From Candidatus Moraniibacteriota bacterium (GTDB taxonomy: Bacteria; Patescibacteriota; Minisyncoccia; CAIUEV01; JAHKAQ01): a stretch of DNA of 42,065 nt. The position numbers were made by a program, and so were the translations under genes. The notes below the pieces were generated by a model, which was not told where the DNA came from, ran no database searches, and was given only the letters and a program-made list of their open reading frames with translations. The stretch spans positions 1-42,065 of the forward strand of contig WJJI01000046.1 in NCBI GenBank assembly GCA_014729795.1. The letters run 5' to 3'. Positions 26,778-28,704 of this stretch are shown here, piece after piece; position 1 is the stretch's first letter, and every line of letters starts with the position of its first letter.

Positions 26778-27024
26778 AAAAGATATGGTTTTTGAAAAGA
26801 CGCGGTAGTCTACGTTTAACGCTGTTGTGGGGCTTGCAAACAACAATTGTTTTTGCTATTTTGATTTTCAAGGGATAGTTATCCAATAAAATAATTGTTG
26901 CGATTATTGGCAGGGGCTATTTTTGGTAAGTTTGAACAAGAAACCAGAGCTTAATTACTTCGTTATTTTGGGTAACGGTCTTGACAAAAGAAAAAGGGAT
27001 TGGCTCCTTTTTCTAGGTACAATA

Positions 27025-27207
27025 GTGTTTTAATGAATCATAATGGTTAGTGAGCGAGATTGCTGATCAAACACGTTTGTTCTAAAATTAAAAAGAGCGG
27101 GTTATTAATTAATCATAAAAAAATAACCTGAAGTCGGGTGGAACCGCGGGTTAAAAGCTCGTCCCGAATATTTTAAATAAAAAAATATTCGGGACGAGCT
27201 TTTTTTG
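27025..27207 (+). promoter_or_regulatory. T-box riboswitch leader (glycine) upstream of glyS
   Basis: T-box sequence GTCGGGTGGAACCGCGGG (27133-27150). Antiterminator helix possible between TCGGG (27134-27138) and CCCGA (27163-27167). Competing terminator hairpin follows. Bulge TGGA matches a U73 tRNA (Gly). 5' boundary and Stem I not resolved. Confidence 0.85.
27157..27206 (+). terminator. T-box intrinsic terminator
   Basis: Perfect 18-bp stem GCTCGTCCCGAATATTTT (27157-27174) / AAAATATTCGGGACGAGC (27182-27199), 7-nt loop, then TTTTTTT. Confidence 0.93.
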
Positions 27208-27300: not shown

Positions 27301-28704
27301 ATGGCCAAAAAAAATTTCAAAACAGTTAAGAAGTCGAAACAGAAACTAACCGAACAGGTAACCATGGAAAAATTAACCGGTCTTTGCAAGCGACGCGGTT
27401 TTATTTTCCCAGCCTGCGAGGTTTATGGGGGTTTTGCTAACGCTTACAGTTACGGACCTTATGGAGTGGAGCTAAAAAATAATTTAAAAAAACTATGGTG
27501 GAAAAAATTTGTTCAGGATCGAGCCGATATGGTAGGGATTGACGGACCGATTATACTCCATCCAAAATTATGGGAAGCCTCGGGTCATACTACGGGTTTT
27601 AGCGATGCCATGGTGGATTGCAAAAAGTGCAAAAAAAGATTCCGGGCTGATCATTTAGTTGAAGAACTAACCGGTGAAGATATGGAAGGAGAGCTGGAAA
27701 GAATGACCCAGACACTAAAAGAACTTAAAGCAAAATGTCCCGAATGCGGAGCTTTTGATTGGACTGAGGCGCGAGATTTCAATATGATGTTTGAAACCAA
27801 AATGAATGGAATTGAAGGTGAAGTTTATTTAAGACCAGAAACCGCGGGCGCAATTTTTGTTGAATTTAAAAATATTCTAGATTCCATGCGGGTAAAAATT
27901 CCGTTTGGTATTGCTCAAATCGGAAAGGCTTTTCGCAATGAAATCGTGGCCGGTAATTTTACATTTCGGTTGAGAGAATTTGAGCAGATGGAAATTGAAT
28001 ATTTTATCGATCCGAAAATGGAATGGAAAAAAATTTACGATCAGTGGTTGGATCAACAAGAGGAATTTATTCTGGAAGTGGGGGCTGAAAAAAGGAATCT
28101 GCGGCGATACGAGCACCCAAAAGCCAAATTATCTCATTATTCTAAGAAAACCGTTGACATTGAGTATCGCTTTCCTTTTGGTTTTAAAGAACTGTTCGGG
28201 TTAGCGAATCGAACCGATTTTGATTTAAGTCAGCACTCAAAATTTTCCAATGAAAAGCTTGAGTATTTTGATCCGGTCAAGAATCGGCGTTATATTCCAC
28301 ATGTGCTTGAGCCGACTTTTGGTATGGACCGTACTATCTTGGTGGCGCTTTTGGCTGCTTATCGGGAAGAAAAGGTTGAACAAGGCGAAAGAGTGGTATT
28401 GAAATTTCCTAAACACATCGCGCCGATTAAAGCGGCGATTTTCCCTTTACTTAAGAATAAGCCGGAATTGGTAAAAAAAGCTAAACAAATTTTTGATTCT
28501 TTAAAAAATAGATTTGTTTTGGAGTTTGACGATCATGGCAATATTGGAAAACGGTATCGCAGACAAGACGAAATCGGCACCCCATATTGCATTACAGTTG
28601 ATTTTGACACCTTGAAGGACAAAACGGTGACTATTAGAGATCGAGATAGTATGAGACAGGAGCGGGTAAAAATTAATGATATTGAGCAATATATTAGCGA
28701 ATAA
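27301..28704 (+). CDS. glyS: glycyl-tRNA synthetase (single-chain, alpha2 type)
   Basis: KLTGLCKRRGFIFPACEVYGGFANAYSYGPYGVELKNNLKKLWW; LRPETAGAIFVEFKNI; GIAQIGKAFRNEI; FRLREFEQMEIEYFI; PHVLEPTFGMDRTIL. Confidence 0.96.
   Translation: MAKKNFKTVKKSKQKLTEQVTMEKLTGLCKRRGFIFPACEVYGGFANAYSYGPYGVELKNNLKKLWWKKFVQDRADMVGIDGPIILHPKLWEASGHTTGFSDAMVDCKKCKKRFRADHLVEELTGEDMEGELERMTQTLKELKAKCPECGAFDWTEARDFNMMFETKMNGIEGEVYLRPETAGAIFVEFKNILDSMRVKIPFGIAQIGKAFRNEIVAGNFTFRLREFEQMEIEYFIDPKMEWKKIYDQWLDQQEEFILEVGAEKRNLRRYEHPKAKLSHYSKKTVDIEYRFPFGFKELFGLANRTDFDLSQHSKFSNEKLEYFDPVKNRRYIPHVLEPTFGMDRTILVALLAAYREEKVEQGERVVLKFPKHIAPIKAAIFPLLKNKPELVKKAKQIFDSLKNRFVLEFDDHGNIGKRYRRQDEIGTPYCITVDFDTLKDKTVTIRDRDSMRQERVKINDIEQYISE

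Follow-up and report, generated by a model that had tools for sequence, protein, structure and literature searches.

A T-box upstream of glyS in a Patescibacteria genome, with a tRNA-reading part that appears to consist of one small hairpin

T-box core and terminator upstream of glyS

The window analysed here, a stretch of 42,065 nucleotides from Candidatus Moraniibacteriota bacterium (contig WJJI01000046.1, assembly GCA_014729795.1), contains on the forward strand an open frame for a single-chain glycyl-tRNA synthetase, glyS, at 27301–28704. All leader elements described in the following lie upstream of it on the same strand. The T-box sequence GGGTGGAACCGCGGG is located at 27136–27150. It is preceded by Stem III, formed by CGGGUUAUU (27098–27106) and AAUAACCUG (27122–27130) within an element spanning 27093–27132, with AAGAG on the 5’ side and AA on the 3’ side, which corresponds to the T-box motif RRRxG-Stem III-AA described in PMC7583486. 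According to the fold and to the alignment with the Rfam T-box model RF00230, the antiterminator (27134–27167) consists of helix A1, UCGGG (27134–27138) paired with CCCGA (27163–27167), and helix A2, GCGGG paired with CUCGU. The bulge between the two helices, UGGAACC (27139–27145), fits the 7-nt T-box pattern UGGNACC and places A27142 opposite the discriminator base 73 of the tRNA. An intrinsic terminator follows at 27153–27206, comprising 22 bp by fold, namely a perfect 18-bp core (27157–27174/27182–27199) plus A/U pairs, and a tail of seven U (27200–27206). Its 5’ arm overlaps the 3’ strand of the antiterminator, which makes the two structures mutually exclusive.

The leader folds more stably than dinucleotide shuffles (z-score -6.8; 0 of 200 shuffles equally stable). 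With the 3’ arm of the terminator cut off (26980–27169), the minimum-energy fold shows, from 5’ to 3’, a short hairpin carrying the specifier, a further stem, Stem III and the antiterminator including the 7-nt bulge. When the 3’ arm is included the fold switches and the terminator displaces the antiterminator. The T-box upstream of glyS is real, and the initial annotation was correct in calling it a transcriptional, glycine-type T-box and in locating its T-box motif, the UCGGG/CCCGA pairing, the 18-bp perfect terminator and the 7-U tail. The scan with RF00230 that it had proposed gave a match at 27021–27169 with E = 3.9e-9, but with 46.7 bits the score stays below the gathering score of 93 bits, an annotation threshold that reflects no biological feature, and a default Rfam scan is silent at this position. 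The score under the curated cut-off is also the point that would speak for the rival view that the upstream gene simply ends in an intrinsic terminator which resembles a T-box by chance. We regard this explanation as almost certainly wrong: besides the E-value, the terminator lies about 400 nt past the upstream stop codon and only 94 nt before glyS, and T-box sequence, Stem III motif and specifier are found ahead of glyS in 13 genomes alike, so that the comparative data already contradict it.

A specifier hairpin and its match to tRNA-Gly

The initial annotation had described a complete T-box decision module at 27025–27207. Discriminator and terminator are found there; completeness did not hold, since no unpaired glycine codon occurs within this interval and the specifier-bearing Stem I lies upstream, at 26989–27014, ending 11 nt before position 27025. 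Likewise, glycine had been named correctly from the downstream gene and base 73, while the specifier hairpin, and with it the miniature architecture, had been missed. The hairpin, AGAAAAAGGG-AUUGGC-UCCUUUUUCU, can be drawn with 10 bp including a G-U closing pair, or with 9 bp and the 8-nt loop GAUUGGCU; the specifier GGC (27002–27004) is part of the apical loop. It is the most stable GGN-loop hairpin 5’ of the T-box in the window.

We compared this hairpin with those of the glyS leaders of the same class, 13 in total (see below). The window loop is identical to the loops of leaders L166 and L190, and in predicted energy the window hairpin is surpassed within the set by L166 alone. The arms covary across the leaders. 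When hairpins were chosen by the motif [AT]TTGGC, all occurrences 5’ of the 13 T-box cores being used irrespective of pairing, 49 of 60 arm positions paired; exchanging arms between hairpins gave 29.8 on average, and none of 20,000 such shuffles reached 49. In the full hairpin set 64 of 72 positions pair (0 of 10,000 shuffles), a test that is partly circular as the hairpins of L188, L201, L206 and L158 were selected by pairing. In shuffles of the intergenic region of the window a hairpin of the strict motif arose in 8 of 3,000 cases.

The apical loop was further compared with the anticodon loops of the 35 tRNAs of the genome. U27000–U27001 together with GGC (UUGGC) are complementary over 5 bp to GCCAA of the anticodon loop of tRNA-Gly(GCC), which is the unique longest complement; the next best, with 4 bp each, are tRNA-Gly(UCC) and tRNA-Trp. 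T73, able to pair with the UGGA bulge, is present in the genes of both tRNA-Gly(GCC) and tRNA-Gly(UCC), as the initial annotation had predicted, and also in the Cys and Thr tRNAs. Among the three tRNAs with the best loop complementarity the U73 needed by UGGA is confined to the two glycine tRNAs, so that both predicted contact ends point to tRNA-Gly. By arm covariation and tRNA match the hairpin qualifies as a T-box Stem I whose specifier fits the anticodon of the cognate tRNA.

The segment between hairpin and Stem III is unusual in the window. The distance from hairpin to T-box core is 139 nt, compared with 57–97 nt in the other leaders, and RNAfold predicts an extra stem of 50 nt at 27025–27074 that is not conserved in relatives. 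This stem was rejected as Stem I on account of its loop, which is devoid of a glycine codon, and a UGC specifier within it (tRNA-Cys, which also has U73) was dropped after the upstream hairpin had been found. In addition we noticed that GAGAUUGCUGAUC in the extra stem (27044–27069) is similar to the loop that carries the specifier in L018, GAGAUUGGCG; a duplicated hairpin may have left it behind, or the likeness may be due to chance.

A different reading of the same T-box would let the transcript start near 27030, downstream of TACAAT (27018–27023), with the 27025–27074 stem and a GGU at 27045–27047 as sensor, or with no functional specifier, and with the 26989–27014 hairpin as an accident. 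TACAAT agrees with 5 of 6 bases of a -10 box, the RF00230 match begins only at 27021, and GAGAUUG at 27056–27062 resembles the L018 loop. However, TACAAT is not accompanied by a -35 box at 16–18 nt, the stem exposes no unpaired GGN, and it is the upstream loop that is identical to the loops of L166 and L190 and that has tRNA-Gly(GCC) as its single best partner. We therefore consider a start near 27030 improbable.

A good promoter was not found close upstream of the window hairpin either (best match 7 of 12 consensus bases). A 9-of-12 match at 26865–26892 is a possible promoter, but chance matches of such quality are to be expected. Together with the long linker and its extra stem, the lack of an obvious promoter sets the window apart from 11 of its 12 relatives and could indicate a decaying T-box, in which discriminator and terminator persist as a constitutive attenuator while tRNA sensing has been lost. 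Against such decay, which we judge very improbable, the element has kept its specifier, its bulge, the Stem III motif and a perfect terminator, and within the set only L166 has a specifier hairpin of stronger energy.

Very probably, then, the leader at 26989–27206 is a transcription-attenuating T-box with a reduced sensor that couples glyS expression to uncharged tRNA-Gly. From its sequence we infer that GGC and the two preceding U in the apical loop of the short 5’ hairpin would base-pair with tRNA-Gly(GCC) in its anticodon loop. An uncharged tRNA would in addition pair through its 3’ UCCA end with the UGGA bulge and stabilize the antiterminator, and RNA polymerase would read through into glyS. 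With charged tRNA the bulge would not be engaged, the terminator would form and transcription would stop. The predicted sensor would do so without a long Stem I and its elbow-binding motif, and without a recognizable Stem II, pseudoknot or K-turn; the 4–5 bp between loop and anticodon presumably make up for the missing contacts.

Thirteen glyS leaders of the class

The survey of glyS leaders suggested by the initial annotation was carried out by scanning 384 genomes of the window’s class with RF00230. It resulted in 13 leaders from seven families, one of them contributed by a pattern search, and all share one design: a hairpin of 4–10 bp with GGN in the apical loop, followed by Stem III, T-box and terminator. 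Examples are GAAGG-GAUUGGCU-CCUUC (L166), GAGGG-GAUUGGCU-CCCUU (L190), GAAAAG-AGAUUGGCGC-CUUUUC (L018), CCGG-AGAUUGGCGC-CCGG (L228), AUCAGAC-CGUGGCAC-GUUUGAU (L201) and GGAG-CCUGGAAA-CUCC (L188). Intrinsic terminators are present in all 13, those of L015, L166 and L199 having been read by eye after the script missed them.

In 11 of the 13 leaders a sigma-70-like promoter matching 10–12 of 12 consensus bases lies just upstream, its -10 box ending 15–30 nt before the specifier loop. With the promoter so placed, a long Stem I would not fit. Assuming that transcription starts 7 nt after the -10 box, the sensor between estimated start and T-box measures about 65–105 nt in these 11 leaders. The linker between hairpin and Stem III is at most about 20 nt long in L018, L017, L228, L166 and L201 (18–20 nt in L018, L017 and L166), too short for a Stem II with pseudoknot in these five. 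A clear K-turn-like sequence (AGCGAUGAU...GGAGCU) was seen by inspection only in L199, so that loss of the K-turn is not universal; an automatic count of K-turns by regular expression was too noisy and was dropped. Absence of K-turn and Stem II is judged here at the level of sequence, not structure. Overall the architecture is better supported by the compact relatives than by the window.

The GlyS of the window is 45–84% identical to the glycyl-tRNA synthetases encoded behind the T-boxes of relatives. Within the window’s own family, the GlyS of genome G001 (leader L017) is only 45–48% identical to that of the window, while the GlyS of G002 reaches 83%; possibly glyS and its T-box were replaced or transferred as a unit. 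Searching the class for the exact pattern returned two true leaders, a third hit being a chance match in a coding region, and the single hit in the phylum outside the class reads like coding sequence. None of the more than 30 loci taken from the phylum-wide scan was a glyS leader. Among the matches listed in a GlyS search of genome contigs there was no close relative with a miniature T-box, and the T-boxes found among them belonged to Firmicutes.

Relation to known T-box classes and distribution in the phylum

Four T-box classes have been described (PMC10482949). Classes I and II have a long Stem I with the tRNA-elbow motif IDTM and are mostly transcriptional; classes III and IV have a short or intermediate Stem I and are mostly translational, with class III requiring Stem II. 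Binding of the tRNA is augmented by the IDTM, the S-turn of Stem II, or both (PMC10482949). Judged by sequence, none of these classes fits the glyS leaders. Like class II (Bacillus subtilis glyQS type) they are glycine-specific, transcriptional, located before a glycyl-tRNA synthetase gene and equipped with a UGGA bulge for U73. Most relatives also appear to have a linker in place of Stem II, of at most about 20 nt in the five compact leaders; the window itself has the extra stem. In class II, however, Stem I is long and has a basal K-turn, the IDTM and the specifier in an internal loop, whereas the glyS leaders carry the specifier in the apical loop of a 4–10-bp hairpin. With class III (Nocardia farcinica / Mycobacterium tuberculosis ileS type) they share an ultrashort Stem I, a specifier in a small apical loop and the lack of an IDTM. 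Class III needs a K-turn as well as a Stem II that forms an S-turn and the IIA/B pseudoknot, and its output is mostly translational. The glyS leaders, in contrast, have no recognizable Stem II, mostly no K-turn, and intrinsic terminators; none of them contains a sequence comparable to the pseudoknot of the ileS leaders. The glyS leaders appear to be a mixture: their specifier is apical as in class III, their linker and transcriptional output are of the class II kind, and they seem to lack the IDTM, Stem II and, in most cases, a K-turn.

Leaders of ileS, serS and aspS from the same class of bacteria (L008, L012, L142, L144, L145, L156, L194) likewise end in an intrinsic terminator and carry their specifier in the apical loop of an ultrashort Stem I. 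In contrast to the glyS leaders they retain K-turn motifs and a Stem II/pseudoknot-like region, and look like class III sensors joined to a transcriptional output. In the glyS leaders the tRNA-reading part appears to be one small hairpin, smaller than in the described T-box types that we found. We lean slightly towards a fifth T-box architecture, the smallest described: transcriptional and glycine-specific, it would work with no more than the discriminator domain and one hairpin with an apical specifier, IDTM, Stem II and K-turn all being absent, and would be held by a 4–5-bp kissing pairing between UUGGC and GCCAA of the tRNA-Gly anticodon loop.

The assembly (1.08 Mb, 93% complete) belongs to the Patescibacteria, in agreement with the CPR-like genome noted initially, and contains four T-boxes, before glyS and before trpE-like, trpB-like and aspS-like genes (the latter three named by reading their translations). 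Those before the trpE-like (L001, C41:22267–22488) and trpB-like genes (L004, C47:14212–14505) also score below the Rfam cut-off. The T-box before the aspS-like gene (L003, C15:2997–3221) shows AAC (Asn) in place of GAC (Asp) in its apical loop, UUAACA; its bulge UGGC matches G73, present in both tRNA-Asn and tRNA-Asp, and the loop of its relative L011 is GGACA (GAC). In this case AspRS could be under the control of tRNA-Asn, which is what one would expect if the enzyme is non-discriminating.

A search of open-access literature gave no paper on T-boxes in Patescibacteria. The impression in the initial annotation that they are little described there is borne out to this extent; they are not rare. 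T-boxes were detected in 74 of the 384 genomes of the class, none of which reaches the RF00230 gathering score, and at E ≤ 1e-4 in 126 of 380 genomes sampled across the phylum, only 13 exceeding it. With scores mostly under this threshold, standard annotation misses most T-boxes of the phylum: the Rfam cut-off hides them. Given the 13 of 380 genomes above the cut-off and some long leaders elsewhere in the phylum, short leaders may be characteristic of the window’s class.

According to reviews, tRNA binding by T-boxes needs an elbow-binding motif, Stem II, or both, and the question has been raised whether any T-box works without a K-turn, glycine T-boxes being named as plausible (PMC7583486, PMC10482949). 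The glyS leaders appear to lack all three elements. As natural candidates with a sensor of about 65–105 nt they make a minimal T-box directly testable, and they predict sensing of tRNA charge in reduced, probably host-dependent bacteria of the ultrasmall type.
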